From a virus, in the IMG/VR virus record IMGVR_UViG_3300021964_000636, positions 1 to 21,759 of that record: DNA of 21,759 bases; one strand, given 5' to 3'. Made by a program: the position numbers and the translations under genes. The stretch's first letter is position 1. Each line of letters opens with the position of its first letter. Positions 2,849 to 19,590 of the stretch are shown piece after piece. The notes beneath the pieces are model-generated. The model did not search any database. It was not told the origin of the DNA and worked only from the letters and a program-made list of their open reading frames with translations.

Positions 2849-2849
2849 A

Positions 2850-3221: not shown

Positions 3222-3241
3222 ATAAGAGTAAGGAGAAAAGC

Positions 3242-3484: not shown

Positions 3485-3509
3485 ATTAGTATAGAAAGGA
3501 GATAGTTCT

Positions 3510-3734: not shown

Positions 3735-3758
3735 ATATGTATAGAAAGGAGAAAGCAA

Positions 3759-3935
3759 ATGCTTCGCACTCAAGACCTGCCCCTCAAAACCTTCCGCGTC
3801 ACCTTCCACCTTCTGGAGCCCATGCGTCCACGCGCAACCCGTATCGTCAAGGCTCGTGATATGTATGAGGCGGCACGGCTCGTAGAGCTTCCAACAAACG
3901 CAATCCAGCCCATGAACATCAAAGAGATCAAGTAG
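3759..3935 (+). CDS. Hypothetical small basic protein, 58 residues
   Basis: ATG at 3759 after promoter cassette 6 and an AAGGAG site; stop TAG at 3933-3935. The protein has an FRVTFHLLEP strand near residues 12-21, a basic turn (RPRATRIVKARD) and an amphipathic helix (MYEAARLVEL). The pattern recalls small alpha/beta proteins, but I cannot assign a family. It is a single-gene unit in the promoter-rich early region and is supported mainly by its promoter, ribosome site and coding-like codon use. Confidence 0.7.
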   Translation: MLRTQDLPLKTFRVTFHLLEPMRPRATRIVKARDMYEAARLVELPTNAIQPMNIKEIK

Positions 3936-3939
3936 TCTC

Positions 3940-3993
3940 TGACATTCTCTTGACAACTTAGTTGTTGACTTCCACCCTCTCCGATGTTATATT
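3940..3993 (+). promoter_or_regulatory. Promoter cassette 7
   Basis: -35 TTGACT at 3965-3970, 17-bp spacer, -10 TATATT at 3988-3993. Boxes TGACA at 3940 and TTGACA at 3950. In this copy the upstream gene ends 5 bases earlier (TAG at 3933), so the TGA of the first box is not a stop codon. The box is therefore conserved in its own right. Confidence 0.87.
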
Positions 3994-4021
3994 ATTAGTA
4001 TAGAAAGAAAGGAGTTCATCT

Positions 4022-6511: not shown

Positions 6512-6653
6512 CAATTGCTTGACGAGGTGCTAGGGGTACCCCCCTACCCCCCTACCGGGATATATGTCCCTATGTTCGGTGTGTGCTGGATGTGGTGGCT
6601 AAGTACGTTTTCGATCCGCGCCTAAAATTTTGAGATATAAGAACCTGAGCGCG
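6512..6653 (+). other. Intergenic region upstream of the 6664 gene
   Basis: No gene. It holds the G/C-rich inverted repeat, a TATATG at 6561 and, at 6617-6653, part of a direct repeat shared with the end of the following gene. The frame ending at 6656 (APKILRYKNLSA before a TAG) resembles a displaced copy of that gene's tail but is closed upstream by a stop at 6600. Confidence 0.45.
6531..6546. repeat. Inverted repeat TAGGGG-TACC-CCCCTA in a C-rich tract
   Basis: A perfect 6-bp stem with a 4-base loop containing the palindrome GGGGTACCCC, followed by a second CCCCCCTA run and a weaker GGGA/TCCC stem near 6558-6571. No T tract follows, so it is not a normal terminator. The - strand carries runs of G (GGGGGG twice). 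It lies just after two TGACA-like boxes (6509 and 6520), in the place where a -35 would be expected. Confidence 0.55.
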
Positions 6654-6671
6654 TAGTTACTACGTGGCACA
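6617..6671 (+). repeat. Direct repeat, copy 1 (flanks the 6664 gene)
   Basis: CGCGCCTAAAA-TTTT, a spaced A/G-rich segment, then TAGTTA and GTGGCACA recur at 6918-6964. The two imperfect copies bracket the 6664 gene, and each ends in the start region of a GDLV-family gene. Confidence 0.55.
6654..6663 (+). promoter_or_regulatory. TAGTTA start-adjacent motif (candidate leaderless promoter), copy A
   Basis: TAGTTACTAC directly abuts the GTG start at 6664, with no Shine-Dalgarno sequence between. The same block precedes at least four other starts at the same distance. TAGTTA at about -10 relative to the start codon would place transcription initiation at or near the GTG. Confidence 0.55.
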
Positions 6672-6942
6672 TCTCAAAGAGTTCTTCGAAAAAGCACCTG
6701 CCCATGACTTTGCAGTCGGGGATCTGGTCACATGCGACTGCCATGGCGGACTTGCCATCATAATTCGCATCTTTGACGGCACTAATGAAAAGGAACCCGA
6801 CTACCCGTCCATGAATATGGTCGAAATTTGGTGGCTAAGGTACCCACACCGCGGAATTAAAGAACGCCAGTGGATACACACCATATCGAGATTAAAAAGG
6901 CACACAGGCAAAAATTACGCGCCTAAAAATTTTACAGATTAG
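6664..6942 (+). CDS. Small SH3/KOW-like phage protein (family member 7), GTG start
   Basis: A 92-residue protein starting GTG at 6664, without a ribosome site but with the TAGTTA motif immediately upstream. After an N-terminal helix (AHLKEFFEKAPAHD) it shows FAVGDLVTCDCHGG, LAIIIRIFDG, VEIWWLRYPHRG and a terminal strand ISRLKRH. The VEIWWL strand matches YDIYWL in the next gene and YEIRWL in the gene at 260. Two Cys follow the GDLV turn. The gene lies between two direct repeats, so it may be an inserted or duplicated cassette. Function unknown. Confidence 0.8.
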   Translation: MAHLKEFFEKAPAHDFAVGDLVTCDCHGGLAIIIRIFDGTNEKEPDYPSMNMVEIWWLRYPHRGIKERQWIHTISRLKRHTGKNYAPKNFTD

Positions 6943-6964
6943 AGCATAGTTATAATGTGGCACA
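6918..6964 (+). repeat. Direct repeat, copy 2
   Basis: The partner of 6617-6671. In this copy the first half codes for the C-terminus of the 6664 protein (YAPKNFTD), and the second half is the start region of the next gene. Confidence 0.55.
6947..6956 (+). promoter_or_regulatory. TAGTTA start-adjacent motif, copy B
   Basis: TAGTTATAAT directly precedes the GTG at 6957. It contains a perfect TATAAT but no -35 at the right distance and no Shine-Dalgarno sequence. Confidence 0.55.
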
Positions 6965-7220
6965 CAATACCGGCAGCAGCTTAACATCAATATACGTCAA
7001 AGGTGACTTGGTTCAGTACGTAGAGTACTTTTATTACCCAACAGCAGTACGAGTAACAGCCCATGACGACTTACACAACAACGATGTTGGTATTGTGGTG
7101 GATACAGTGTACTCTATGTATGGCAATGAGTTGTACGACATATATTGGTTAAGAACCGGTAAGCGAAGTTTTACGCAGGCTATAAACCTTAAATTGGCTT
7201 ATTTGATACCGGGCACCTAA
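6957..7220 (+). CDS. Small SH3/KOW-like phage protein (family member 8), GTG start
   Basis: An 87-residue protein with a GTG start at 6957 fixed by the adjacent TAGTTA motif; no Shine-Dalgarno. Pattern: IYVKGDLVQYVEYF, an insertion of about 20 residues, then DVGIVVDTVYS, LYDIYWLRTGKRS and a terminal strand INLKLAYL. Its first three residues (MAH) and upstream sequence match those of the preceding gene, so the two probably arose by duplication. Function unknown. Confidence 0.8.
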   Translation: MAHNTGSSLTSIYVKGDLVQYVEYFYYPTAVRVTAHDDLHNNDVGIVVDTVYSMYGNELYDIYWLRTGKRSFTQAINLKLAYLIPGT

Positions 7221-7228
7221 TTATACAC
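7218..7228 (+). promoter_or_regulatory. TAATTA start-adjacent motif, copy C
   Basis: TAATTATACAC precedes the ATG at 7229; its first three bases are the stop codon of the upstream gene. No Shine-Dalgarno sequence. This is a variant of the TAGTTA motif. Confidence 0.4.
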
Positions 7229-7474
7229 ATGAAAATCAAAAAGTCAGAACTGCGCATTATCGTGCTTGAAGAGCTTACCAAGTCCGATAAAGATGAAATC
7301 CAGCGCATGATTTCAAAAGAACTTAAGAAAATGGTCGAAGATGAAGTAGCAAAAGCTATCAAGTCGAAAAACATCAAGGACGACATTGGTGATATTACCA
7401 AGAAAGTTCTTAAAAAGCTGTACAAGGATATGTCTGTACATCATCCTTACATTATTGACCGAATTAAAGTGTAA
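7229..7474 (+). CDS. Conserved small helical phage protein, 81 residues
   Basis: A highly charged, fully helical protein beginning MKIKKSELRIIVLEEL, a type of N-terminus frequent in proteins of marine T4-like phages, then a Lys/Glu-rich middle and an ending KLYKDMSVHHPYIIDRIKV. I recall close relatives in marine viral contigs but know of no function. The leading peptide might be a capsid-targeting or oligomerisation element, as discussed for other proteins here. ATG 7229 has no Shine-Dalgarno site. Confidence 0.75.
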   Translation: MKIKKSELRIIVLEELTKSDKDEIQRMISKELKKMVEDEVAKAIKSKNIKDDIGDITKKVLKKLYKDMSVHHPYIIDRIKV

Positions 7475-7521
7475 CTTAGTGACACGCGGGACTATGTATA
7501 GACCGCTGTTGGAGATATAAA

Positions 7522-7776
7522 ATGTTTAAAACGCAAGTAATAGCAATAACGCTGAGCGCATTAGCCGGAACATCTGCGGGACTAGTCGGAGAGCAAGTGG
7601 TGTCCAAGCCCGAGATGCTGCCCATTCCTTACGAAACCGTGGGCGACACTGTTCCCTTACAGCCATTTAATCACTCACCAGTTATTGAATGCAATGGTAT
7701 TACGCTAGACGATGCTGTTGATATTAAGATCGTCAGCGAGTGTGCTGTTGGTCGTGTAGGTTGGCTTAAACTGTAG
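7522..7776 (+). CDS. Small exported protein with signal peptide, 84 residues
   Basis: ATG 7522 with GGAG at 7511-7514. Residues 1-20 form a signal peptide (Lys at 3, hydrophobic core VIAITLSALAGTSAG) with possible cleavage after TSAG. The mature part is acidic and strand-like and has two Cys (near 57 and 74) that could pair in the periplasm. No known domain. Export from a phage gene suggests action on the host envelope, such as exclusion or lysis, but this is not shown. The 47-base leader contains TATGTATAG, a loose relative of the start-adjacent motif. Confidence 0.65.
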   Translation: MFKTQVIAITLSALAGTSAGLVGEQVVSKPEMLPIPYETVGDTVPLQPFNHSPVIECNGITLDDAVDIKIVSECAVGRVGWLKL

Positions 7777-7784
7777 ACAACACC

Positions 7785-7794
7785 TAGTTACTAT
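7785..7794 (+). promoter_or_regulatory. TAGTTA start-adjacent motif, copy D
   Basis: TAGTTACTAT directly precedes the GTG at 7795, without a Shine-Dalgarno sequence. It has the same spacing as copies A and B. Confidence 0.55.
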
Positions 7795-8037
7795 GTGGAC
7801 CTCAGAAGTGGCATGGTATTGTACGATGTCGTCGATAAAAGTTTTATCATACTTGTTCGACGATTTTGGTCATACGAAGGACTAGAAGCGCCGTCGTATG
7901 CTAAGATTAATCCCGACTTTTTTAAAGTATGGGTGTGGGAAACTTTGTCGTCAAAAGAAGGCAAGATGTTTTGGTCGGAAGGTGGCTTGCATAATTTAAT
8001 CAAGTCGGAGATTATTATCGTATTGGATGATATTTAA
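7795..8037 (+). CDS. Small SH3/KOW-like phage protein (family member 9), GTG start
   Basis: An 80-residue protein with GTG at 7795 set by the adjacent motif. It starts MDLRSGMVLYDVVDKS, where GM stands in place of GD, then FIILVRRFW, KVWVWETLSSKEG and a C-terminal hydrophobic strand EIIIVLDD. The two-Trp strand (VWVWE) aligns with IWWL and IYWL of its neighbours. It is a more diverged family member. It sits in a run of three such genes (7795, 8044, 8337). Function unknown. Confidence 0.75.
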   Translation: MDLRSGMVLYDVVDKSFIILVRRFWSYEGLEAPSYAKINPDFFKVWVWETLSSKEGKMFWSEGGLHNLIKSEIIIVLDDI

Positions 8038-8043
8038 GAAACT

Positions 8044-8322
8044 ATGCAAACAAACTTGCGCGAAGAGTCAGAACGTATTAAGTTAGTACCCGGCGATATG
8101 ATCGTTGATATTGCTTCTAATAATGTCGGCATTCTGATAGAGCGTGTCCGTCGTATTAGCATGCAAGATGATGATGTTTACTTTTGGATTATTCACTGGA
8201 CTAAAGAGTCGGATAATATGGTGCCTATGACTCTGCAAATGGAAGAAGATGGTCTCAAGATCTCGATAGTCGTTGGTTTGTATGACCTTTTCTCAAGTAG
8301 TGATTTGCAAAAGCTGAAATAA
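8044..8322 (+). CDS. Small SH3/KOW-like phage protein (family member 10)
   Basis: A 92-residue protein starting ATG 8044. No Shine-Dalgarno; TATTTA (8031-8036) lies 7 bases before the ATG. Clear family pattern: LVPGDMIVDIAS, then VGILIERVRR, VYFWIIHWTKES and LKISIVVGL. A helical C-terminal tail of about 15 residues follows the barrel. Function unknown. Confidence 0.8.
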   Translation: MQTNLREESERIKLVPGDMIVDIASNNVGILIERVRRISMQDDDVYFWIIHWTKESDNMVPMTLQMEEDGLKISIVVGLYDLFSSSDLQKLK

Positions 8323-8336
8323 TTTTAGGAAAAAAT

Positions 8337-8543
8337 ATGGAAAAAATTTCGAAGTTTGATGTCGGTGATCTGGTATTGATAGGCGATCATCCTCATACCG
8401 AACCTGCCATCATACTTAAAATGGGACCTGCGCGGGAAGATAAGCAAACGATTATGTTTCCTGTATGTCATATTTTAAACCTGCGAACTTCTGCTGTTGA
8501 GAGATCTTATTTGTTTAGATTGCGTCTTCTTTCTGCAAGCTGA
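8337..8543 (+). CDS. Small SH3/KOW-like phage protein (family member 11)
   Basis: A 68-residue protein with AGGA at 8327-8330, 6 bases before ATG 8337. It reads ISKFDVGDLVLIGDHPH, then PAIILKMG, MFPVCHILNLRTS and a last strand YLFRLRLLS. This gene, unlike its neighbours, has a ribosome site, so it is probably translated from the transcript of the gene before it. Function unknown. Confidence 0.8.
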   Translation: MEKISKFDVGDLVLIGDHPHTEPAIILKMGPAREDKQTIMFPVCHILNLRTSAVERSYLFRLRLLSAS

Positions 8544-8554
8544 TAGTTACTTTA
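8544..8554 (+). promoter_or_regulatory. TAGTTA start-adjacent motif, copy E
   Basis: TAGTTACTTTA directly precedes the GTG at 8555, immediately after the TGA stop of the previous gene. No Shine-Dalgarno sequence. Confidence 0.5.
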
Positions 8555-8722
8555 GTGGACAAGCTTAATAAGATCATGTTTCCAATTGCTGTGGCGGCTT
8601 TCTTTGTTAATATATGGATGCTGATATGGGGTTCGATGAATAACCTCCATGATCTTGAAATACTATCTCTTTGCAATATGATCTTATTAAGTTTCGTTCT
8701 TCTTCGTCGAGAAGACGGATAG
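8555..8722 (+). CDS. Small two-span membrane protein, 55 residues, GTG start
   Basis: GTG at 8555 set by the adjacent TAGTTA motif; stop TAG at 8720-8722. The protein MDKLNKIMFPIAVAAFF... has two hydrophobic segments (about residues 8-26 and 36-50) separated by a short polar loop (GSMNNLHDLE), and an RREDG tail. The hairpin shape is like that of some small holins or exclusion proteins, but no diagnostic residue is present. It lies between the SH3-like run and the VWA lipoprotein gene. Confidence 0.6.
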   Translation: MDKLNKIMFPIAVAAFFVNIWMLIWGSMNNLHDLEILSLCNMILLSFVLLRREDG

Positions 8723-8727
8723 CGACA

Positions 8728-8737
8728 TATTTACTAT
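8728..8737 (+). promoter_or_regulatory. TATTTA motif with leader (candidate phage promoter)
   Basis: TATTTACTAT lies 28 bases before the GTG at 8766. In this copy a leader with AGGAGGG follows. If the motif sets transcription start 4-5 bases downstream, the mRNA would begin near 8738, leaving room for the ribosome site. Confidence 0.4.
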
Positions 8738-8765
8738 GTCGTAAGACTGCATAGGAGGGTTAAAT

Positions 8766-9785
8766 GTGGGAGTGTTTTTATTTGTTTTAAGCTTATTGTC
8801 TTGTTACACTGATTACTCAATCGGTCAAGAGAAAAAAGTTATATCTGAAATAAAAGAAGTGGAAGTGATCGTAGAGGTTCCGGTTGAAACGGTCGTCGAG
8901 ATTGAGGTTCCAGTTTATATAGAAGTTGAGGTTCCGGTCAACGAAGGTGAGATCTGGGTTGACTCGTTTACTCAACATCACTCTATTGAAGGTATCGATA
9001 TCTTATGGGTTATTGACCGTTCAGGTTCTATGCATATTTATAACTCGCAGTTGTTAGCCGGTATTGAAGCAATGTTATTAGCTCTGCCAACAAGCGACTG
9101 GCGTCTTGTAATGATTAGTGCCGACCCAACAGACTCTGTGCTGAGTACTGAGTTTCCTCTTATTCCGGGTGACGATGTAGCCGATGCGGCAGATATGATG
9201 TCTACATTAGGTAATGGAGGCTTAGAGGAGGGCTTTGAGTCTGTATATCAGTACATCGTTATTAACCCTTACTCTTCAACTTGGATGCGTCCAGATGCTG
9301 GCTTGTTAGTTGTGTTTGTTTCTGATGAAGAAGAGCAAAGCAATGTTAGATATCCATTAGCAATGGAATTTGTAAGTTGGTACCGCTCTTTGCGAGGCGG
9401 GTCGGTATTTATGGCTAGCATCGTAAACCATGAATTTGGTACCTCGTTATGCAGTTGGGCTGTTAGTCCATTAGATGTTGGAGAAAGATACATGGAAGCC
9501 ACAAATGCTTTTGGTGGGGTTGTGGTAGACATCTGTGATTCTGATTGGTCTCCGGGTGTGACTGACGCGACACGCTCACTGGATCCAATAGAAAATATAA
9601 AATTAACTCACCAAGCAGAAGAGGACTCTATTAGAGTTTTCATCAACGGTTCTTTAAATTACGACTGGTACTACCAAGCATCAGATAACACAGTTTATTT
9701 CACTATTGTGCCGTCTGGTGGTGATTTAGTCGAAGTTGGTTATAGGTATATAGCAGCACCGGATACCGGTGATAGTGGCTTATAG
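8766..9785 (+). CDS. VWA-domain lipoprotein
   Basis: A 339-residue surface protein. GTG 8766 is preceded by AGGAGGG at 8753-8759; the ATG at 8764 is in another frame and closes at once. Residues 1-13 form a short lipoprotein signal ending LLSC (lipid-carrying Cys13), unusual in lacking basic residues at the N-terminus. Residues 31-60 are a Val/Glu/Pro repeat (VEVPV units), probably a stiff stalk. The VWA domain starts near 77, with MIDAS DRSGSM (84-89) and a second acidic loop VSDEEEQS. The last third is strand-rich and ends PDTGDSGL. VWA domains bind metal and a protein ligand. In a phage genome this could be a host-surface protein made during infection or a virion component. The stalk and tail recall lipoproteins of Myxococcota and relatives. 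It is followed by an exported protease gene. Confidence 0.85.
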   Translation: MGVFLFVLSLLSCYTDYSIGQEKKVISEIKEVEVIVEVPVETVVEIEVPVYIEVEVPVNEGEIWVDSFTQHHSIEGIDILWVIDRSGSMHIYNSQLLAGIEAMLLALPTSDWRLVMISADPTDSVLSTEFPLIPGDDVADAADMMSTLGNGGLEEGFESVYQYIVINPYSSTWMRPDAGLLVVFVSDEEEQSNVRYPLAMEFVSWYRSLRGGSVFMASIVNHEFGTSLCSWAVSPLDVGERYMEATNAFGGVVVDICDSDWSPGVTDATRSLDPIENIKLTHQAEEDSIRVFINGSLNYDWYYQASDNTVYFTIVPSGGDLVEVGYRYIAAPDTGDSGL

Positions 9786-9793
9786 GAGATATC

Positions 9794-10528
9794 ATGAAAC
9801 ACTTACCTTTAATATTTGCGATGTTGCTGTCGCTATTATCAAACTCACAAGCAGCAACAAACACAGCAGCAGTTCCCTTACCTGTTGAACATGCTGACGT
9901 AGCCATGAATATGGCACAAAAGAAAGTTAGAGAAGCCGCAGTTAAAGTTGCTTCTGGTGGAGGGCACGGAAGTGGTTCGTATATCGTCCATAAAGGTCTT
10001 CACATGGTTTTTACTGCACAACATGTAGCAGACGGTCATATTGGCTCGAAGTATCAAGTATTCAAAGGCAAAGAAATGAGAGTTGCCACTCTTGTTTGGT
10101 CTAGTGAGTTAACAGACATGGCTGTACTTTATTTACCCGAGAGATTTATTACTGCTGACCCAATGAAGTGGGATCCTCAAAAACGAATTGCTGAAGTTGG
10201 GACTGATATAACTTATTCTGGTTTTCCGTCAAGCCATAAGTTAATGACTTTTGCTGGTAGCGTAGCGGGATATGCTGAACGTCATGGAGCAGGAAAGCAG
10301 ATTATTCTTAACACATATGGGTGGTTTGGTTGCTCGGGCTCTGTTGTTTACAATTTAAAAGGTGAGATCATTGGTATCTTGTACGGTGTTGATGTTGAAT
10401 ATCATCCAGACATACAAGTTCAGGAGAATATGATTTGGGTCGCTCCTATACAACAAATTAAAATAGAAAACATTGTAAAAAGAATTTGTTCTGGTGTACC
10501 ATATGGAACCGCAAGAGCTTGTAAATAA
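9794..10528 (+). CDS. Exported trypsin-like serine protease
   Basis: A 244-residue protein with a signal peptide (residues 1-20, cleavage near SQA) and a chymotrypsin-like fold. The catalytic residues can be placed: His77 in TAQHV, Asp108 in LTDMAV, Ser181 in GCSGS. The Gly-rich GGGHGSGSYIV at 55-65 is the usual first strand of HtrA/trypsin-like domains. Length fits a single protease domain without PDZ. AGGAG overlaps the stop of the VWA lipoprotein gene, and the ATG lies 8 bases beyond that stop, so the two genes form one operon and may act together at the host envelope or outside the cell. An exported trypsin-like protease is uncommon in a phage of this kind. Confidence 0.85.
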   Translation: MKHLPLIFAMLLSLLSNSQAATNTAAVPLPVEHADVAMNMAQKKVREAAVKVASGGGHGSGSYIVHKGLHMVFTAQHVADGHIGSKYQVFKGKEMRVATLVWSSELTDMAVLYLPERFITADPMKWDPQKRIAEVGTDITYSGFPSSHKLMTFAGSVAGYAERHGAGKQIILNTYGWFGCSGSVVYNLKGEIIGILYGVDVEYHPDIQVQENMIWVAPIQQIKIENIVKRICSGVPYGTARACK

Positions 10529-10530
10529 TA

Positions 10531-10968
10531 ATGAAATATACTTGGAAGACATTTCTTCAAGAAGAAGAGCTAAAATCTGTCGGTATTGTCGCTTGTTTAG
10601 ACGATAAAGGCAGATTTTTAGTTATTAGACGTTCTAATATAGATCATAGAGGCGGGCAGTGGACCATACCGGGTGGTCATATCGATGAAGAAGACACTTC
10701 TATCGAAGAGGGCGCGATAAGAGAATTGGAAGAAGAAACTGGTTTGACTTGTAGTGTCTCGGACTTAAAGTATTTGGGCGAACCAAGACCGCAAAAGTAC
10801 TATTTCTTAACCAGAAAATGGTCTGGAGATATAAATGTCGATATTCCAAACCCTAAAACTGGTGAAATTGAACACGACGACTATAAATGGGCGACAATTG
10901 ATGAGATAAAAGAGTTGGAAGGTAATGAAATTCCGATCTATTTATTGGAGAAAGCTCTGGAATTATAA
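10531..10968 (+). CDS. Nudix hydrolase with N-terminal W-x-x-F-L peptide
   Basis: A 145-residue protein. The Nudix box is at residues 48-72 (GGHIDEEDTS through RELEEETGL); the catalytic REL-EE-x-G core is intact (R64, E65, E68, E69), but one residue is inserted between the first Gly and the REL compared with the canonical spacing. Nudix enzymes cleave nucleoside diphosphate compounds such as NTPs, NADH, ADP-ribose or RNA caps; the substrate cannot be read from the sequence. The N-terminal MKYTWKTFLQEEE precedes the first strand of the fold and resembles the capsid-targeting propeptides of T4 internal proteins. The start lies 3 bases after the protease gene, with no good Shine-Dalgarno. The next gene starts just after its stop. 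Confidence 0.9.
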   Translation: MKYTWKTFLQEEELKSVGIVACLDDKGRFLVIRRSNIDHRGGQWTIPGGHIDEEDTSIEEGAIRELEEETGLTCSVSDLKYLGEPRPQKYYFLTRKWSGDINVDIPNPKTGEIEHDDYKWATIDEIKELEGNEIPIYLLEKALEL

Positions 10969-10969
10969 A

Positions 10970-12280
10970 ATGGAAGATCTTTATGGTCCGCTGGATGAGA
11001 AAAAGTCCAAGCGAAAAAAAGCAGGTACCGAGTCTAGCAAAGAATCTTCTTTAGCTGATTGGTTTGGCAGAAAAGGAGCTAAAGGCTCCAAGAGCGGTTG
11101 GGTAGACTGTAATGCTCCAGATGGTAAAGGTGGCTATAAGGCTTGTGGTCGCGAATCTGGCGAGAAAAGAAAGAGATACCCCTCATGTCGTCCCACGCCC
11201 GGTGCTTGTAAAGAGCGCGGAAAAGGCAAAACATGGGGCAAAAAAGGAAAATCTAAGAAAAACGAGGAAATAACAATGGATTTAGAGCAAATTGTTCGTG
11301 AAGAACTTGAAGCAGTCCTTAGTGAGAAGGAAGGCAAAAAAGATGCGTGCTATCACAAAGTAAAATCACGCTATAAGGTGTGGCCAAGTGCTTATGCTTC
11401 TGGTGCTCTTGTTAAATGTCGTAAAGTTGGAGCCAAGAACTGGGGTAATTCAAAGAAAGAACAACTTCAAGCAATGATTGAGGACGAATTAACCAGTGTT
11501 TTACAAGAAAAAGATTACATTCCGGGTGGTTTGACTGACAAGCTGACTGGTAGCATGGAAGATAAACACAAACAACTTGCAAAAATGCACAATGTTAGCC
11601 TCGAAGATATTGAAAAAGAAGTTTCAAAAGGCGTAAAAACAGAGTTAGAGCACACAAATGACGAGAACATTGCTCACGAAATTGCAATGGACCACGTTTT
11701 TGAAGATCCAAAGTATTACACCAAACTTTCAGCACAAAAACTTGAAGAAAGCGACGAGATGATAAAATATCATATCGATAACAACATTCCTTTCTCGGAA
11801 AATGTATACCGCGTGGGCTCTGAAAACTACTTTGAAGTTATCTCAGAAGCCCGCAAGCTGTACAACGACGGTAACTTAGCTCCTTTGTGTGAAGAAGATA
11901 AAGATTTGTTTGAGAACTCCAACTTAGGCGAATGGGATGAGTTTGAAGGAGAGCGAGTTCCTCTTGATTTTCCAATGTATGAGGAAACACTTGAAGAAAA
12001 AGAAAAGAAAGATCCGCCCATCGGAAAGCCAACAAAGAATACCGGTGGCGGAAAGAAATACAAAGTATACGTAAGAAACCCAAAAACTGGAAAAGTGAAG
12101 AAGATTACCTACGGTGATTCAAAAGGTGGTCTTAAAGGCAACTGGAACAACGCTGAAGCTCGTGCAAGTTTTGCCGCACGTCATAACTGCAAAGACAAAA
12201 AAGATAGAACCAAGGCTGGTTACTGGGCTTGTAGGGCTCATAAAGACTTTGGTACAAATGTGCCCGGAAGATTTTGGTAA
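10970..12280 (+). CDS. Mosaic Cys-rich basic phage protein (DUF5872/DUF5661-like modules)
   Basis: A 436-residue protein from ATG 10970; the upstream in-frame ATG at 10925 lies wholly in the Nudix gene. Modules in order: 28-95, LADWF then GWVDCNAPDG, CGR and YPSCRPTPGAC (DUF5872-like); 126-160, CYHKVKSRYKVWPSAYASGA, a second Cys module; 186-258, ELEHTN...AHEIAMDH (DUF5661-like); 265-325, NVYRVGSENYFEVISEAR; and 363-436, ARHNC...GYWACR, a basic C-terminal module. Each also occurs in other arrangements in marine phages; their functions are unknown. Strong positive charge and paired Cys suggest nucleic acid or metal binding. An in-frame ATG at 11276 (Met103), preceded by GAGGA, could give a shorter form. 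The short helices IVREELEAVLSE and MIEDELTSVLQE join the modules. Confidence 0.8.
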   Translation: MEDLYGPLDEKKSKRKKAGTESSKESSLADWFGRKGAKGSKSGWVDCNAPDGKGGYKACGRESGEKRKRYPSCRPTPGACKERGKGKTWGKKGKSKKNEEITMDLEQIVREELEAVLSEKEGKKDACYHKVKSRYKVWPSAYASGALVKCRKVGAKNWGNSKKEQLQAMIEDELTSVLQEKDYIPGGLTDKLTGSMEDKHKQLAKMHNVSLEDIEKEVSKGVKTELEHTNDENIAHEIAMDHVFEDPKYYTKLSAQKLEESDEMIKYHIDNNIPFSENVYRVGSENYFEVISEARKLYNDGNLAPLCEEDKDLFENSNLGEWDEFEGERVPLDFPMYEETLEEKEKKDPPIGKPTKNTGGGKKYKVYVRNPKTGKVKKITYGDSKGGLKGNWNNAEARASFAARHNCKDKKDRTKAGYWACRAHKDFGTNVPGRFW

Positions 12281-12283
12281 ACA

Positions 12284-12565
12284 ATGAACGACTACCCATT
12301 TACTGAAAAGCTCATCAAAGACAATGTGTTTTTGCGAGAGTTCAAAGAAGATACAAATGAAAGTGAACTTGTTTGGCATCAAGACCAAGAGGAACGTATC
12401 CTCACGGTCGTAAAGTCAAATAATTGGAAGCTACAAATGGACAATGAGCTTCCTATCACACTCCAAGAAGGTCAAAAATATTCAATTCCTGCTTATTTTT
12501 ATCATCGCGTTATCAAAGGCAAAGGCGATTTAGTTATAATGGTCGAGAAAAAGGTCAAGAATTAA
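12284..12565 (+). CDS. Small cupin-like protein
   Basis: A 93-residue protein. From ELVWHQDQEERILTVV through WKLQMDNELPITL and KYSIPAYFYHRVIKG to LVIMVEK, it follows the strand order of a single cupin barrel. His/Glu residues (H32, E36, H74) sit where cupins bind metal, and the YHR-[I/V]-x-K-G segment matches the second cupin motif. Marine phages encode similar proteins; substrate and role are unknown. It begins 4 bases after the previous stop, without an obvious ribosome site, so it is probably translationally coupled. Confidence 0.7.
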   Translation: MNDYPFTEKLIKDNVFLREFKEDTNESELVWHQDQEERILTVVKSNNWKLQMDNELPITLQEGQKYSIPAYFYHRVIKGKGDLVIMVEKKVKN

Positions 12566-12578
12566 CAAATTTAGGTTA

Positions 12579-12588
12579 TAATTACTTC
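12579..12588 (+). promoter_or_regulatory. TAATTA motif with short leader (candidate phage promoter)
   Basis: TAATTACTTC followed by AAGGAATCAAG and the ATG at 12603. It fits the TA-N-TTA pattern, here with a 14-base leader carrying a ribosome site (AAGGAA at 12589). Confidence 0.35.
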
Positions 12589-12602
12589 AAGGAATCAAGT
12601 AT

Positions 12603-15086
12603 ATGCTGACTGACGAGCAAATTCTAGCAAAAGCTGCTAAACTTTTAGAAAATTTAGATGAAGAATGGTCTAAGTCTGAGAGATCTAAGCGAAAAAGCAA
12701 ATGTGACAACCCAAAAGGGTTCACAATGAAGCAATTTTGCAAAAATCAACGCACAAGATCTAAAAAAGGCGAGAAAACTAACGAAACAATTGACTTTTAT
12801 GAAGAAAAAGTACTCCGAGAAGTCACCGAAGACGAAATGCGAGTGCTCGAAAACGTTTTAGATGATCTTGATCCAGCAAAACTGCCTTTAAATGACCTTT
12901 TTAGTGGCAAAATGCGTGTTGTTATACCATTTCCAACAATGGACACCGAGTCCGATCTTGGAAAGTTTGTAAAATTCTTTGATATTCAAGAATATGAGGT
13001 AGATTGGGACAAAGGTATAGTCTCTGCAACACGAGAACAAAGAGGCGGTGCGCTTGATTTGCTAGGCAGAGGTAGAAATGAGCCATCAGAGAAGAAAACC
13101 AAGAAAATTCAGATGAAAATCGGCAAATTGTTCCCAAAAATAGCCCAAACAGCTTCAAAATTAGATGAATTGTTCCAAATTATTAAAAAAGAAGGCGAAG
13201 GCAAAGCTTGGTGGAATTACGCCATTAGACCCGGACAAGTATCCGGAAATGTGGTTCACAAAGTGTTGTCAGATGAACAAATAAAGTCTTGGGACAGATT
13301 AACGGACCAAATGTATGATTATATTCCTAATCCGGGTTATTTTGCTCCAAAATGGGATGAAACTGTAGAATATTTTCAAAATATGAGCAAATATTGGCAA
13401 AAAAATGCTGGATATATCAAAGATGAGATAGAAAATCTTACAAATGACAAATATTCTATCATTATTACTCGTCATCCTATCGATGTGTTGAGAATGAGCG
13501 ATTTTGATAACATTACATCGTGCCATTCGCCTGCAAGTCGTACAAGTGCCTATCAATCTTACTATAAATGTGCTGTAGCTGAAGCTCAGGGTCATGGGGC
13601 GGTTGCCTATGTGGTAGAGACAGAAGAATTGCTTATAAACACATATACGGACAATATAGACAGCGCAGAGCAAGAAATCCAAGAAGGCGAGATATTTGCC
13701 GACGATGCAAGATATGGAGGGGCTGGATTTGATATTAACCCAATTTCTCGCACACGTATCCGTCATATGCGGTATTATGATACTCTTTCTCCAAAACGCT
13801 GGGATGATGGACAAGATATTGGTGTGCCAGAAAAACGTATTTATGGTGCTGCTATTCCGGGCATTAGAGAAAAAGTTGTTGATTGGGCAAGACAAACCCA
13901 AGAAGAAATCATTGCTAATATGCCAAAACAAGACGGCAAAATTGACTTAGATAGAGTTACTATGTTTGGTGGTTCTTATGAAGACACGTCTGGAACAACT
14001 GGACGCAGAGAACTTATGATGCAACTAACGGGAATAACTGACGTTGATCAATTTGTAGGCTATATTAAACAGAACACCGAAACAGAAGATGCCTTAGACG
14101 CAGATTTACTTGGCGATATTCGCGCACAATATGAGCAACAATGCAGCGAGATCGAAGAGCACTTTAATATGCGTATGGCTGCCTGCACTGTTAATTACGA
14201 AATTCAAGACGATGGTGATGATGGTGTTTATATTGTTGGTGGGGCTCAAATAAGAATTGTTTGGGACGCTGATGAATGGAGTAAACTTCCAAACTCGTGG
14301 GACAATGTTACTCAGGATTCGGTAAGTGCTATTAATGATATTTATGGTGATTTATTGTTGGACAATGTTTATCTGTCTATGGATCGAGGAAAAAACCAGA
14401 TAGCGTGGGAATGTGCAATCAACACAGAACACCCAGACTTAGGCGGAAGTTCATATTATGCACTTCCAGAAGAATTTCAAGAAATGTGTGAATCAGTTGA
14501 TACAGTTGTTGACGACAAACGAGATGCATTTGAAGAAACATTAACAAACTACTTTGCTCGCGAAGGATATATGCAAGGTGGTGCTTTTATTCAAATGGCT
14601 GTCGATATTGAAAACGGCGAGATCTCTCCATACGAATGGGATGTCGAAACCGATGGAGAATACGAAGACAGTTATGAAGTATATGCAAATTACTCACATT
14701 ATTATGATCCAGAAGAATACAATATCAATCCTGATGTATTAAACGATATTGTTGAGTCTCGCGACTTTAAAATTGCCTTGCGCAGTGCTTTGTTAGAGTC
14801 GCCACGAAAAGAAATAGATACACAATATTTCTTACAAATGCGTTTAACAGCACAAGAAGTGGGAGGAGAAATCAAAGTTACCGTTACGTTTGTTACAAAT
14901 CGTGATGAGCCTGACGAAATGACTGAATTATTCAAGACTCTTATCGAAGGTGAAATGGACGACGAAGATAATCTTAATGTAGTTTTCAAGAGAGTGTTGA
15001 CTCAATTTATAAAAGCTCGCGAGCCGGCATTTATGCAAACAAACGAAAGCGTCGTTAAGAACTGGAAAAACTTCTTGGGCTCATGA
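12603..15086 (+). CDS. Large conserved phage protein of unknown function, 827 residues
   Basis: The largest gene of the window. Start ATG 12603 with AAGGAA 8 bases upstream. The N-terminus is a short helix (DEQILAKAAKLLENLDEEW), then a basic Cys segment (KCDNPKGFTMKQFCKNQRTR, residues 34-53). The middle includes IIITRHPIDVLRMSDFDNIT, a CHSPASRTSAYQSYYKCAVA stretch and GHGAVAYVVETEE. The second half is acidic with many Tyr/Asp residues. The C-terminus ends ESVVKNWKNFLGS, a W-x-x-F-L peptide like that at the start of three other proteins here. I recall similar proteins in marine phage contigs without known function. No polymerase, helicase, nuclease or tail motif is visible. A virion or capsid-interior protein is a guess from the terminal peptide and neighbours. 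Confidence 0.75.
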   Translation: MLTDEQILAKAAKLLENLDEEWSKSERSKRKSKCDNPKGFTMKQFCKNQRTRSKKGEKTNETIDFYEEKVLREVTEDEMRVLENVLDDLDPAKLPLNDLFSGKMRVVIPFPTMDTESDLGKFVKFFDIQEYEVDWDKGIVSATREQRGGALDLLGRGRNEPSEKKTKKIQMKIGKLFPKIAQTASKLDELFQIIKKEGEGKAWWNYAIRPGQVSGNVVHKVLSDEQIKSWDRLTDQMYDYIPNPGYFAPKWDETVEYFQNMSKYWQKNAGYIKDEIENLTNDKYSIIITRHPIDVLRMSDFDNITSCHSPASRTSAYQSYYKCAVAEAQGHGAVAYVVETEELLINTYTDNIDSAEQEIQEGEIFADDARYGGAGFDINPISRTRIRHMRYYDTLSPKRWDDGQDIGVPEKRIYGAAIPGIREKVVDWARQTQEEIIANMPKQDGKIDLDRVTMFGGSYEDTSGTTGRRELMMQLTGITDVDQFVGYIKQNTETEDALDADLLGDIRAQYEQQCSEIEEHFNMRMAACTVNYEIQDDGDDGVYIVGGAQIRIVWDADEWSKLPNSWDNVTQDSVSAINDIYGDLLLDNVYLSMDRGKNQIAWECAINTEHPDLGGSSYYALPEEFQEMCESVDTVVDDKRDAFEETLTNYFAREGYMQGGAFIQMAVDIENGEISPYEWDVETDGEYEDSYEVYANYSHYYDPEEYNINPDVLNDIVESRDFKIALRSALLESPRKEIDTQYFLQMRLTAQEVGGEIKVTVTFVTNRDEPDEMTELFKTLIEGEMDDEDNLNVVFKRVLTQFIKAREPAFMQTNESVVKNWKNFLGS

Positions 15087-15325
15087 GCAAATACTTAAAC
15101 AATCCCGAATATCTTTTCAACATTCTTACAATGTTAGTAAAGAAGTATGGCGGTAAGATAGTAATAACCGAAGAAGACATGAACAATATCTCCAAAGGAG
15201 ATTTAATAGGCATGTATTATGAGCCAGAAACAAAAAGCCTCATACTTAAAGAAGTGGACCAAAAGGATATGCTTAAAGCAACCAATATGGTCGCTGACAA
15301 GATAGATGAGGAGTACGATAACTAA
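15083..15325 (+). CDS. Conserved small phage protein, 80 residues
   Basis: It overlaps the previous stop (ATGA). Helical N-terminus (PEYLFNILTMLVKKYGG), then KIVITEEDMNNISKGDLIGM and YYEPETKSLILKEV, which look like a small alpha/beta unit. I recall similar proteins in T4-like marine phages (a conserved 'KKDLVG-YYD-...-LILK' pattern) but no function. Its stop and the next start overlap (TAATG). Confidence 0.7.
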   Translation: MSKYLNNPEYLFNILTMLVKKYGGKIVITEEDMNNISKGDLIGMYYEPETKSLILKEVDQKDMLKATNMVADKIDEEYDN

Positions 15326-15570
15326 TGTTTAAGAAGTTTGCAGAACACCCCGCAGAACAAGGGGAAACATATCTAGAACACATGGTGGCAGCGTGGAAGA
15401 TAGTTTATGTTTTAAAAGTCTTAGAGACAAAGTGTTTTATACATTCCATATTTCCGTTTTTGTATACAGATGCTCTTTCTAGCAAAATAGATTACTTAGC
15501 TAAGTTAACAAACAGAAAATCACAAAAACAACAAGATCGTGATTTATATGAGGTGTATGGCGGTGATTGA
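15325..15570 (+). CDS. DUF6356-like small protein, 81 residues
   Basis: It begins MFKKFAEHPAEQGETYLEHM, continues with a hydrophobic helix (AAWKIVYVLKVLETKCF) and then IHSIFPFLY. The pattern HPA-x-x-GETY-x-EH followed by IH-x-[I/L]-[F/L]-PF is that of the DUF6356 family found in bacteria and phages. The central hydrophobic stretch suggests membrane association. Function unknown. The start overlaps the preceding stop by one base; the end overlaps the next small gene by 14 bases. Confidence 0.7.
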   Translation: MFKKFAEHPAEQGETYLEHMVAAWKIVYVLKVLETKCFIHSIFPFLYTDALSSKIDYLAKLTNRKSQKQQDRDLYEVYGGD

Positions 15571-15685
15571 TTTGCTCATCATTGGCTTTGCCTGTATGAG
15601 TTTATTAGTTTTTGCTGCCACCCAAGATAAACACGAGAAAAAAGAAAATGTACAAGTACAACGCGAAACTGATACGGGTAATTGA
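15557..15685 (+). CDS. Putative small single-span membrane protein, 42 residues
   Basis: ATG 15557, stop TGA 15683-15685, with GAGG close upstream (15550-15553). Residues 2-22 are hydrophobic (AVIDLLIIGFACMSLLVFAA), then a polar Lys/Glu/Gln tail. It overlaps both the gene before and the nuclease gene after, in a different frame. The membrane helix and ribosome site support it; the heavy overlap counts against it. Confidence 0.5.
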   Translation: MAVIDLLIIGFACMSLLVFAATQDKHEKKENVQVQRETDTGN

Positions 15686-15980
15686 TGGCGATACCATCGA
15701 TGCGCTCATAGACTTAGGTTTTGATGTGTGGATTAAGAAGCGCATTCGATTATATGGCATTAACACGCCAGAAACCCGTACTAGAGACCTTGAGGAAAAG
15801 AAGGCAGGGAAAGAAGCCAAGGCACGTTTAGAAGAGCTTCTAGAGCAACATGGAGGTGTTTTTGTTTTAGAGTCTCACGGAGTTGGAAAATACGGAAGAT
15901 GTTTAGGGGTACTATTTATCGGTGAAACCAACATTAACACTCTTTTATTGAGTGAGGGTTTGGCGGAGGAATATAAATGA
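15648..15980 (+). CDS. Staphylococcal nuclease-like (thermonuclease) protein
   Basis: A 110-residue single-domain nuclease. Start ATG 15648 is chosen because the family fold begins at once (YNAKLIRVIDGDTIDALI); an upstream TTG at 15612 would add an unrelated basic tail. Key residues: D13 and D15 in VIDGDT, R34 in RLYGINTPE, T40, E42, and R84 in KYGRCLG, corresponding to the Asp/Arg/Glu/Arg set of micrococcal nuclease; the usual Asp before T40 is Asn39. These enzymes cut DNA and RNA with calcium. There is no signal peptide, so it would act inside the cell or be packaged, for example degrading host DNA or RNA. Shorter than the staphylococcal enzyme but complete for the core. It overlaps the next gene (ATGA). 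Confidence 0.88.
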   Translation: MYKYNAKLIRVIDGDTIDALIDLGFDVWIKKRIRLYGINTPETRTRDLEEKKAGKEAKARLEELLEQHGGVFVLESHGVGKYGRCLGVLFIGETNINTLLLSEGLAEEYK

Positions 15981-16243
15981 AATTTTTCGTATCATTCTTT
16001 GCAACATTTTTGTTGTTGCTTTTTTTGTCCAGTATCGCTGAGGCTAGTGACGACGAAGAGCCCAAGGTTGTTTATAAAAAGAAAACTGAAATTGACTTTG
16101 AAGGTGTCGAAGTTGAAGGAACTCTAACAAAACCACAAGGGTCCTTGCTTTTAGAACGAAAACATGCTAAATTTAATCCTATGATTAAGTTGCGCACTGA
16201 CTTTGACGATGAGATGGAGCAATCTGTAAAGGAAGTAAAATGA
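15977..16243 (+). CDS. Small exported protein, 88 residues
   Basis: Signal peptide in residues 1-23 (KFFVSFFATFLLLLFLSS, cleavage likely after AEA). The mature part is highly charged: VVYKKKTEIDFEGVEVEG, then GSLLLERKHAKFNPMIKLR and a closing helix DEMEQSVKEVK. The pattern reminds me of small exported proteins encoded next to TonB/gliding-type genes in Myxococcota and relatives, but I cannot verify this. GGAGG at 15965-15969 gives a strong ribosome site. The end overlaps the next start (ATGA). A periplasmic or envelope role in the host is inferred from the signal peptide only. Confidence 0.7.
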   Translation: MKFFVSFFATFLLLLFLSSIAEASDDEEPKVVYKKKTEIDFEGVEVEGTLTKPQGSLLLERKHAKFNPMIKLRTDFDDEMEQSVKEVK

Positions 16244-16845
16244 AACTCCTACTTGAAAATTGGAGAAATTACATTTTACTAGAAAACATTGAAACTGCTT
16301 CTAGACTTTCTATTTTTGATTTCGATGAAACAATTGCGTTTACAACTGGATATATCAATGTTATTAACAAAGAAACTGGTGAGAAATTTCAAATTACCTC
16401 TCAAGAAGAATTTGATGAGTTGAAAACTGCTGGTGGTTATGAGTTTGACTTTTCACCGTTGGCTAAGGTAAACAACGCAGTAGAAAATCCAAACATAACC
16501 TCTATTATGCGCGATAGGCTTAAAGACCCAAACACACAAGTTATGGTACTAACCGCAAGAGATCCCATATCAGTTGACGATATCCATATGACTTTACAAA
16601 TGTTTGATAAACCAATGGATACTAAAAACGTTATCATTATTGGTAATAGTGGCGGCAATAAAGGCGAATACATCAGAAATCTTGTGCTACCAAAATACGA
16701 TAACATCAAAACAATAGAGTTCTACGACGACTCAGATAAAAATATTAGCGATATGCTTGAACTAAAAAAAGAAACATCTGATAGTGGGCGTATTGAAAAC
16801 TTCGACATTTATCATGTAGTCGAGGGAAAGCCAAATTTAAGCTAG
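16240..16845 (+). CDS. HAD-family phosphatase with N-terminal W-x-x-Y-I peptide
   Basis: A 201-residue protein with all four HAD motifs: I, FDFDET at 26-31 (nucleophile D27, general acid D29); II, VLTARD with T105; III, K141 in GNKGEYI; IV, FYDDSDKN with D163/D164. Small insert, no large cap. HAD enzymes of this shape in phages include polynucleotide 3'-phosphatases and proteins of the RNA-repair type; the exact substrate is unknown. The N-terminus MKLLLENWRNYILLEN precedes the fold and matches the W-x-x-[F/Y]-[L/I]-x-E peptide on other proteins here. Start overlaps the previous stop; AAGGAAG lies upstream. The ligase-like fusion encoded 3 kb downstream would be a natural partner in RNA repair. 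Confidence 0.85.
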   Translation: MKLLLENWRNYILLENIETASRLSIFDFDETIAFTTGYINVINKETGEKFQITSQEEFDELKTAGGYEFDFSPLAKVNNAVENPNITSIMRDRLKDPNTQVMVLTARDPISVDDIHMTLQMFDKPMDTKNVIIIGNSGGNKGEYIRNLVLPKYDNIKTIEFYDDSDKNISDMLELKKETSDSGRIENFDIYHVVEGKPNLS

Positions 16846-16880
16846 CGGCGGCACTACTTATAGGCAGGGAGAAACACCTT

Positions 16881-17204
16881 ATGAACACCAACAATGGATG
16901 GGAAACCTACTCAAAGTTAGTTTTACAGCAACTTGAAACCATGGCTAGTGGTATCGAGTCTCTGCGTACTGAATTGCAAGATGTTAAAGAGCAGTTAACT
17001 GAACTAAAAGCCAAAGAAGATCGAGTGCAAGATCTCAAGGCTTGGAAAGAAAAGATGGATGATGTTGCTTCTCCCCCACAACTTAGAGAAGCACTTTTAG
17101 AACTTCAAGAGTTGAAAACCTTCAAGACAAGAGCAACCACAATATTCATGGTCGTACAAGCAGCAGTCGGTTTTGCTATGGCTTGGATCATGGAATTGTT
17201 TTAG
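16881..17204 (+). CDS. Coiled-coil protein with C-terminal membrane anchor, 107 residues
   Basis: AGGGAG lies 9 bases before ATG 16881. Residues 8-75 are a long coiled coil (SKLVLQQLETMASGIESL, LQDVKEQLTELKAKEDRVQD), then PPQLREALLELQELKTFKTR and a C-terminal transmembrane helix (IFMVVQAAVGFAMAWIM). Proteins with this order are common in marine T4-like phages and remain uncharacterised; a membrane-bound oligomer such as a lysis accessory protein or a virion component is possible. A TACTTATAGG block at 16855 upstream loosely fits the TA-N-TTA promoter pattern. Confidence 0.75.
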   Translation: MNTNNGWETYSKLVLQQLETMASGIESLRTELQDVKEQLTELKAKEDRVQDLKAWKEKMDDVASPPQLREALLELQELKTFKTRATTIFMVVQAAVGFAMAWIMELF

Positions 17205-17283
17205 TTTTTAAACGTTTCTTCAATAATACGTCTTTATTGTTTTCGGTGAGTAACTGTAATAATAAATGTACGTAATAGCCTCA

Positions 17284-17294
17284 TAGTTACTTTG
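17284..17294 (+). promoter_or_regulatory. TAGTTA start-adjacent motif, copy F
   Basis: TAGTTACTTTG directly precedes the ATG at 17295, 9 kb away from the other TAGTTA copies but at the same distance from the start. No Shine-Dalgarno sequence. The 80 bases before it contain no gene. Confidence 0.55.
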
Positions 17295-17585
17295 ATGGCT
17301 GCTTCTAGAGAATACATAAAAGACTTCATAACAAGAGTTATAAAATATATTGGTGGTGACTTTGACGAAGACGACGAGATCATCCCAGAGTATGGTATTG
17401 TCGGTTCTGGTCTTTTGTATTGTTCTGAGTACGGAACTAGAAATTTCGTGAAAGTTTCTCGCGGTCAAAAAGCTTGGGTCATCGATGACGAAAAAGATGA
17501 TTTAGATAGAATTTTAATTTACACACAGTGTGGCAAAATAGTTAAAATAAACCATGAAGAAGTTATATACACTGGGTGTGATTAA
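17295..17585 (+). CDS. Hypothetical acidic protein, 96 residues
   Basis: ATG 17295 is preferred over the TTG one codon earlier because of the adjacent TAGTTA motif. An N-terminal helix (SREYIKDFITRVIKYIGG), an acidic loop (DFDEDDEI), then strands YGIVGSGLLYCSEYG, NFVKVSRGQKAWVIDD and ILIYTQCGKIVKINHEEVIY. The second half could be a small beta barrel, perhaps a distant relative of the SH3-like family, but the GD turn is absent. Overlaps the next gene by one base (TAATG). Function unknown. Confidence 0.65.
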   Translation: MAASREYIKDFITRVIKYIGGDFDEDDEIIPEYGIVGSGLLYCSEYGTRNFVKVSRGQKAWVIDDEKDDLDRILIYTQCGKIVKINHEEVIYTGCD

Positions 17586-17737
17586 TGCTTTTTACATTTA
17601 ATAAATTCTGGAAGACTTTATTTTCGCTTATCCTTGCTTGGGTATCTTGCCATTTTATAGGTTTCGAACTTACCGCCATATCATTATTGACATTAATATT
17701 AAATAAAAATACACATGACACAGAGCATCTCGTGTAA
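17585..17737 (+). CDS. Small membrane protein, 50 residues
   Basis: ATG 17585 overlaps the previous stop (TAATG); stop TAA at 17735-17737. Two hydrophobic stretches (about residues 12-25 and 27-39: LFSLILAWVSCHF, LTAISLLTLIL) form a likely membrane hairpin; the ends are polar, and the C-terminus is His/Asp-rich. No specific family. The tight coupling to the preceding gene supports it. Confidence 0.55.
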   Translation: MLFTFNKFWKTLFSLILAWVSCHFIGFELTAISLLTLILNKNTHDTEHLV

Positions 17738-17744
17738 ATGAGTC

Positions 17745-17754
17745 TATTTATGGC
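17745..17754 (+). promoter_or_regulatory. TATTTA start-adjacent motif, copy G
   Basis: TATTTATGGC directly precedes the GTG at 17755; no Shine-Dalgarno. A variant of the TAGTTA motif at the same 10-base distance. Confidence 0.4.
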
Positions 17755-17946
17755 GTGGCTAAATCAAAAACAACGAAAGGCGATTCGTCTGTTGAGGGCG
17801 TTTATCTCGTCAGGCATCTTGTAGATTCTGAGAAAGGTAAAGTTTCTCAAGTCGGACCGTTTCATAATGAGAAAGAAGCACTAAATACTTGTGTGCATTT
17901 CTTGAAAAAAGGAACGTGCTCTTGGCTTGTGAGATGTGATGGATGA
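17755..17946 (+). CDS. Hypothetical small protein, 63 residues, GTG start
   Basis: GTG 17755 is preferred because an ATG at 17738 is in a different frame and yields only 28 codons. Basic, flexible N-terminus (AKSKTTKGD), then GVYLVRHLVDSEKG, KVSQVGPFHNEKEALNTCVH and CSWLVRC, which looks like a small beta-alpha-beta unit, with the pattern 'G-PF-N-x-x-E-A' often seen in phage proteins of unknown role. No Shine-Dalgarno; the TATTTA motif abuts the start. Confidence 0.6.
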   Translation: MAKSKTTKGDSSVEGVYLVRHLVDSEKGKVSQVGPFHNEKEALNTCVHFLKKGTCSWLVRCDG

Positions 17947-18184: not shown

Positions 18185-18189
18185 GAAAC

Positions 18190-18199
18190 TATTTATATT
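18190..18199 (+). promoter_or_regulatory. TATTTA motif with short leader
   Basis: TATTTATATT lies 22 bases before the ATG at 18221, in the only gap between the two genes. It fits the candidate phage promoter pattern. The leader has no Shine-Dalgarno site. Confidence 0.35.
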
Positions 18200-19338: not shown

Positions 19339-19590
19339 ATGTCATTAGACAAACAGTGGAGAGATTTTCTTAACGAGAGTGCAGATGATAAAAACATCTT
19401 TACCTATATTCAGGGTCTCCAAGAAATAATTTCCAATCTAAAACCAAAGACCATTGCTGAGAAGCGCCGACTTCAGTTGGCTAAGCAGCATTTGCGCGAA
19501 GTGAAGAGATTCGCTCGACGAATGGAAAATGATATTGGTGTGCTTCAAGAAAAGCTTAATATTCTAGAAGAATCAGCAGGAAAAGAATAA
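19339..19590 (+). CDS. Small coiled-coil protein with N-terminal W-x-x-F-L peptide, 83 residues
   Basis: ATG 19339 with GAGG about 9 bases upstream. It begins MSLDKQWRDFLNESADD, then is entirely helical and basic/acidic (GLQEIISNLKP, RRLQLAKQHLREVKRFARRM, DIGVLQEKLNILEES). The leading QWRDFLNES is the third example of the W-x-x-[F/Y]-[L/I]-x-E peptide. Such short helical proteins in T4-like phages can be head core or internal proteins. One-base overlap (TAATG) with the following gene suggests co-translation. The 95-base gap before it has no gene. Confidence 0.7.
   Translation: MSLDKQWRDFLNESADDKNIFTYIQGLQEIISNLKPKTIAEKRRLQLAKQHLREVKRFARRMENDIGVLQEKLNILEESAGKE

Follow-up and report, generated by a model that had tools for sequence, protein, structure and literature searches.

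A putative divergent gp55-type late promoter with predicted leaderless messages in a group of uncultured T4-superfamily phages

The window analysed here is the whole 21,759-base fragment of the IMG/VR virus record IMGVR_UViG_3300021964_000636, in which nearly all genes lie on one strand. Several of its small genes carry a short AT-rich box just ahead of the start codon and lack a Shine-Dalgarno (SD) site. The original prediction placed TAGTTA 10–11 nucleotides (nt) ahead of the start codons at 6664, 6957, 7795, 8555 and 17295, and variants of it before 7229 and 17755. All of these boxes and distances are present in the sequence, and TA[G/T/A]TTA lies 10–11 nt ahead of each of the seven starts, the count beginning at the first T of TANTTA. 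The features concerned are given below; "late box", "leaderless class" and "leadered class" are predicted assignments, aa stands for amino acids and ORF for open reading frame.

6654 to 6659, plus strand: late box TAGTTA, 10 nt (6654 to 6664) ahead of the GTG start at 6664; leaderless class
6664 to 6942, plus strand: gene of a small "VGDLV" protein; GTGG start, no SD site
6947 to 6952, plus strand: late box TAGTTA, 10 nt (6947 to 6957) ahead of the GTG start at 6957; leaderless class
6957 to 7220, plus strand: gene of a small "KGDLV" protein; GTGG start, no SD site
7217 to 7223, plus strand: late box CTAATTA, 11 nt (7218 to 7229) ahead of the ATG at 7229
7229 to 7474, plus strand: 81-aa gene; ATG start, no SD site
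7784 to 7790, plus strand: late box CTAGTTA, 10 nt (7785 to 7795) ahead of the GTG at 7795; leaderless class
7795 to 8037, plus strand: 80-aa gene; GTGG start, no SD site
8031 to 8036, plus strand: TATTTA, with the ATG at 8044 at +13 (8031 to 8044); last codons and stop of the preceding ORF
8543 to 8549, plus strand: late box ATAGTTA, 11 nt (8544 to 8555) ahead of the GTG at 8555; leaderless class
8555 to 8722, plus strand: gene of a 55-aa membrane-like protein; GTGG start, no SD site
8727 to 8733, plus strand: late box ATATTTA, start 8766 at +38; leadered class
8754 to 8760, plus strand: SD site AGGAGGG of the gene at 8766–9785 (−10.7 kcal/mol)
12579 to 12584, plus strand: late box TAATTA, start 12603 at +24, weak SD site AAGGA (12589–12593); leadered class
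16854 to 16860, plus strand: late box CTACTTA, SD site AGGGAGA, start 16881 at +26; leadered class
17283 to 17289, plus strand: late box ATAGTTA, 11 nt (17284 to 17295) ahead of the ATG at 17295; leaderless class
17295 to 17585, plus strand: 96-aa gene; ATGG start, no SD site
17744 to 17750, plus strand: late box CTATTTA, 10 nt (17745 to 17755) ahead of the GTG at 17755; leaderless class
17755 to 17946, plus strand: 63-aa gene; GTGG start, no SD site
18189 to 18195, plus strand: late box CTATTTA, start 18221 at +31, no clear SD site; leadered class
712 to 4021, plus strand: left block with the contrasting class of sigma70-type promoters, TTGAC..TATATTATA (e.g. 712, 3193, 3456, 3965), followed by AAGGAGA-type SD sites

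The predicted absence of SD sites is borne out by SD duplex energies of −3.2 to +0.1 kcal/mol in the start-adjacent genes, against about −8 to −9 kcal/mol at the promoter-bearing genes of the left block. The exception is gene 8044 (−5.2 kcal/mol), which had been counted as an eighth member of the group. Its TATTTA is the end of the preceding ORF and lies at +13, and the gene is therefore dropped; the TATTTA is probably not a late box, and translation of gene 8044 is likely coupled to the upstream ORF. The other seven genes stand. In each of their frames no earlier start codon follows the preceding stop, except at 17295 (a TTG lies one codon earlier), so the missing SD sites are not due to misplaced starts. 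The prediction also agrees with the sequence in its remaining points on the window: five of the eight genes (6664, 6957, 7795, 8555, 17755) start with GTG followed by G, the boxes at 8728 and 12579 are each followed by an SD site, and the box is distinct from the promoters of the left block. The leadered boxes at 16854 and 18189 come in addition to those listed earlier.

Within the window, TA[AGT]TTA as such is not over-represented (40 seen, 46 expected). Position sets TAGTTA apart: 5 of 12 stand 3–6 nt before a start codon (0.3 expected, p=1e-5), and it is the sole non-SD hexamer in the top three among all hexamers at that distance from window starts.

Relatives were gathered with two window proteins as queries, and several whole contigs were then read. 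They encode T4-type gp17, gp20, gp21, gp23, gp18 and gp25; by these genes the clade, a large set of bacterial viruses that are uncultured and mostly marine, belongs to the T4 superfamily of myoviruses as a distant branch. When capsid proteins are compared, the cultured phages closest to it are Flavobacterium phage immuto (45% over 64%), Microcystis phage Mel-JY01 and Rhodothermus phage RM378.

A de novo 7-mer search in the gaps between genes of the relatives, with the window excluded, returned three strand-specific word classes: CTTGACA with TATATTA, AAGGAGA, and ACTATTTAT/CTAATTA. CTATTTA alone occurs 68 times in these gaps, against 9.6 expected, with 1 occurrence antisense. In ten further contigs, selected by the presence of a sigma gene alone (see below), strand counts of ACTATTTA are 28:2, 0:27, 2:24, 23:4, 21:2, 2:27, 16:1, 13:3, 1:16 and 8:2. 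The original prediction had named as its refutation a motif no commoner near starts than elsewhere; in the relatives the motif is strand-specific and start-linked. The block as a promoter element is thereby upheld and its definition sharpened: the full consensus is ACTATTTAT, also written (a)CTA[T/A/G]TTA(t), with CTAATTA and TAGTTA as variants, the latter favoured in the leaderless class. Of all hexamers, TAGTTA is the one most tightly tied to a position, namely a start codon at exactly +10 (28 seen, mean 1.9 at other offsets); a GCACAC signal at +19 in the same scan was a coding-sequence artefact, caused by a methionine inside a single conserved gene, and was ignored. Upstream of the box there is no strong −35 element, just weak T-rich letters. 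Box and sigma70-type promoters mostly stand at different genes, and the box precedes the sheath gene (gp18), the gp21 gene (in the form CTACTTA) and the genes flanking the capsid gene gp23 on either side in contigs G001 and G002. Around the sigma gene itself boxes are few (19 in 0.78 Mb), so the counts were made on whole contigs. A T4 box on the opposite strand (TATTTATA, the reverse complement of TATAAATA) was considered and rejected, because the box lies on the coding strand before genes and its reverse complement shows no spike.

The distance from the box to the first in-frame start falls into two classes. The counts spike at exactly +10, with +11 as a shoulder, drop to a trough over +14 to +19 and rise again to a second peak at +23 to +28. 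SD sites accompany 3% of the starts at +10 versus 75–86% at +23 to +32 (75% at +23 to +25). Four previously unused contigs, picked by their sigma gene only, gave the same picture: 14 starts at +10 (21% with an SD site), 3 in total at +14 to +19, and 19 at +23 to +25 (89% with an SD site). With the window included, 110 boxes lie at +10/+11, in 36 protein families. This class prefers TAGTTA (48/110 versus 41/382 of the leadered boxes, p=2e-13) and is richer in GTG starts (42/110 versus 46/382); its genes are short, with a median of 91 aa versus about 240 in the leadered class.

A pyrimidine directly precedes the start codon in 50 of 56 cases at +10, compared with 135 of 287 leadered genes (p=1e-9). 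Leadered promoters, with no start codon nearby, also show a pyrimidine excess at offset 9 (45% versus 30%, p=7e-8). The usual bacterial initiator has a pyrimidine at −1 and a purine at +1, and the enrichment at offset 9 in both classes therefore points to a transcription start at offset 10 in both. The T4 late promoter provides a register: the first position of its 8-base box is −13, so that the box spans −13 to −6 (PMC2988020). The first T of TANTTA would therefore be −11, and +1 would fall at offset 11; the start codons observed here stand at offset 10 or 11. The earlier proposal that transcription starts 4–5 bases after the box fits the spike at +10/+11, the pyrimidine signal that precedes it and the register taken from T4. 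It is likely that leaderless messenger RNA (mRNA) is made from this fixed-spacing subclass of boxes.

Orthologues elsewhere have the box in the same position relative to their starts, and the letters between box and start vary. Gene 7795 and its orthologues read TAGTTActatGTG, TAGTTAaggtGTG, TAGTTAggatGTG and TATATAccatGTG, with equal spacing and differing spacer letters. Orthologues of gene 7229 retain CTAATTA, and the start lies either at +11 without an SD site or behind a longer leader with one, as a fixed transcription start predicts. TAGTTA is retained in most of L017–L026 at gene 8555; orthologues of gene 16881 have ACTACTTA/ACTAATTA; the box of gene 17295 is retained in L006, L064 and L003; the orthologue of gene 17755 in L006 has CTAGTTAgggcGTGG; and CTATTTA is present at most orthologues of gene 18221. 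A search of the relatives with the strict 14-mer TAGTTACTNNNTGG gave no match, the query being too strict. The nearest relatives, the IMG/VR fragments L017 and L018, are near-identical to the window across most genes; gene 6957 is just 71% identical, and at gene 6664 TATATA replaces TAGTTA as the box.

The proposed reader, a gp55-like factor encoded elsewhere in the genome, was sought and found in the relatives. A Sigma70_r2 family search gave one weak match, below the cut-off, to an ORF of 234–269 aa in nine contigs, whose versions are clearly homologous to each other. PHROGs labels it "late sigma transcription factor" (phrog_234, E=7.8e-5), and at least 408 related loci occur in IMG/VR. By tblastn, relatives are present in phage immuto and Mel-JY01, and a weak match (22% over a third of the protein) is found in Ochrobactrum phage OC, annotated there as "RNA polymerase sigma factor for late transcription". 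An AlphaFold model (predicted local distance difference test, pLDDT, 76; predicted template modelling score, pTM, 0.43) was searched against a viral fold library, where nearly all leading named matches are sigma factors (best E 4.7e-4, the best match itself being without a name). Several structural genes of phage immuto and Mel-JY01 are preceded by ATATTTATA, very similar to the clade box. The RNA polymerase beta' gene (PF00623) is absent in 14 large contigs, with 14 of 14 cellular control genomes positive. That this sigma factor reads the box is likely, given their co-occurrence. Beyond the sigma2-like part, the protein continues at its C-terminus into a long helical segment of high conservation, NKKAIYLYLREITGLNTKQIVNSLKKFRK (L094:1261–1962 and relatives; alignment A1 columns 215–270). 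This segment resembles a helix-turn-helix; it may take the place of gp33, which is missing, or work as a domain similar to region 4.

The sequences themselves supply the box, its linkage to strand and start, the structural genes, the two distance classes, the pyrimidine footprint at −1 and the sigma gene in relatives; from these we infer the sigma–box pairing, the actual transcription starts, the late timing and the leaderless translation. In the proposed mechanism, the box would be the core of a late promoter with the consensus given above, read by the host RNA polymerase core together with the phage gp55-like sigma. By T4 late numbering, TANTTA would begin at about −11 and transcription would start about 10–11 nt downstream of its first T. 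Where the gene starts at least 20 nt downstream, a short leader would carry the SD site; with a start codon at precisely +10 or +11, the mRNA would begin on the A or G of ATG/GTG and be leaderless, presumably translated by the route for 5'-terminal start codons. The promoter identity of the box is very likely, and this whole reading, a divergent gp55-type late promoter with leaderless mRNA where the start is at +10/+11, is quite likely. The late timing and the temporal order are suggested by the genes that the box serves.

Known systems share parts of this arrangement. Like the T4 late promoter (TATAAATA, gp55–RNA polymerase), the putative clade promoter has no strong −35 element and consists of one short, AT-rich box, some one turn ahead of the predicted transcription start; it precedes structural genes, is accompanied by a gp55-like sigma gene in the genome (here, in relatives), and has a leadered class with a lower edge at about 20 nt. 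It differs in its box, (a)CTA[T/A/G]TTA(t) rather than TATAAATA, and would thus be a divergent variant; it also has a large class with the start codon at +10/+11, whereas in the 49 kb of T4 late region checked the closest start lies 20 nt from the equivalent T and all promoters have leaders. The late promoter of Aeromonas phage Aeh1 has [a/g]C in place of TA at −13/−12, giving the variant [a/g]CTAAATA (PMC2988020). Its AC ahead of TA matches the clade box position for position (ACTAAATA versus ACTATTTA); after CTA, however, Aeh1 has AATA and the clade [T/A/G]TTA. In Thermus phage phiYS40, most middle and late mRNAs are leaderless (reviewed in PMC3594737). The likeness lies in the leaderless mRNAs of later genes; in the clade a subset of late genes would be leaderless and the rest have SD leaders. 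The −10-adjacent ORFs of Deinococcus-Thermus, with TANNNT directly before the start codon (PMC12340547), likewise combine a promoter core at fixed spacing with leaderless genes, but TANNNT is a host promoter and the clade box is of phage type. A literature search of incomplete coverage found no published account of leaderless late genes with a gp55-type box.

The position of the box, 4–5 nt before start codons without an SD site in the leaderless class, would also suit a translation signal in a longer mRNA, that is, a non-SD ribosome-binding element just ahead of the start codon. The same box, however, also stands 20–40 nt ahead of starts with SD sites of their own, with a trough separating the classes; it is kept at orthologues of gene 7229 through both start arrangements; and the pyrimidine at offset 9 is enriched even where no start codon follows. 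Such a translation signal is accordingly very unlikely. Coincidence combined with shared ancestry, in which tandem duplication left a few small genes with one and the same functionless upstream sequence, draws on the upstream sequence common to 6664 and 6957 and on the paralogy of some leaderless families. It is contradicted by the genome-scale counts, by the spread over 36 protein families, by a spacing that stays constant though the spacer letters differ and by replication in independent genomes, and is hardly credible.

If the box is a promoter, another enzyme might read it, either an alternative sigma of the host or a phage RNA polymerase of the phiKZ type. The box has TATATAC variants that are similar to the early element of phiKZ, which is TATATTAC-like, and sigma and box are paired by association. 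Set against this, 14 large contigs lack a beta' homologue of the multisubunit polymerase that phages with phiKZ-type promoters encode, a gp55-like sigma is conserved in nine clade contigs, and phage immuto and Mel-JY01 carry both a very similar box and relatives of this sigma. A different reader is improbable.

Several results weigh against a gp55-type late promoter with leaderless messages. PDB fold matches of the sigma model are weak (best E 0.14), a PDB sequence search with the sigma profile gave no match, and T4 gp55 as a single query found no match. The sigma gene is present in relatives and not in the 21.8 kb window fragment. Pfam searches for gp33 (PF16805) and gp45 (PF02916) were silent in 7 contigs, having been run without a T4-like positive control. 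The 110 leaderless boxes in 36 families include orthologues, a start at +10 falls 1 nt short of that expected from the T4 register, and gene 18221 is leadered yet has no clear SD site. GTG-initiated leaderless mRNAs are, moreover, inefficient in E. coli.

Ribosomal protein bS21 is phage-encoded in 12 of 14 large clade contigs (G001, oriented, 14973–15113; G002:73732–73884; and ten others). In nearly all large contigs the gene belongs to the structural module; in G001 it lies between the prohead protease and capsid genes, an arrangement that Microcystis phage Mel-JY01 shares. For other phages, a link between their bS21 and late replication has been described (PMC9723584). A coupling of the late switch to a remodelled ribosome, with phage bS21 helping the host ribosome to take leaderless, often GTG-initiated mRNAs, is conceivable and on balance unlikely.

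Other features of the window concern its small proteins. A 26-nt repeat (6617–6642 and 6918–6943, 81% alike) ends just before the boxes of genes 6664 and 6957, which suggests that a small gene was duplicated together with its putative promoter. A "GDLV/GDIV" motif lies near the N-terminus of many small, mutually divergent proteins (2388, 3243, 5398, 6664, 6957, 8044, 8337, 17936), in early-type and late-type blocks alike; these are possibly a large family of SH3-like domains. Short terminal motifs, W..FL.E or I..EEL, are common to unrelated proteins of the right block (7229–7474, 10531–10968, 12603–15086, 16240–16845, 19339–19590), for example MKYTWKTFLQEE, MKLLLENWRNYILLE, WRDFLNES and, at a C-terminus, WKNFLGS. 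Reminiscent of T4 capsid-targeting peptides, they may mark proteins that are packaged into virions.

The analysis provides a concrete consensus for the putative late promoter, and a candidate sigma factor, for a group of T4-superfamily phages that is abundant and uncultured. The results suggest that the promoter of a gp55-type system can be positioned right at the start codon, a single box then governing transcription as well as how the message is translated. Gene starts are corrected as well, namely GTG starts without SD sites, which gene callers may miss or shift. The translation of leaderless phage mRNAs late in infection thereby becomes a directly testable question.

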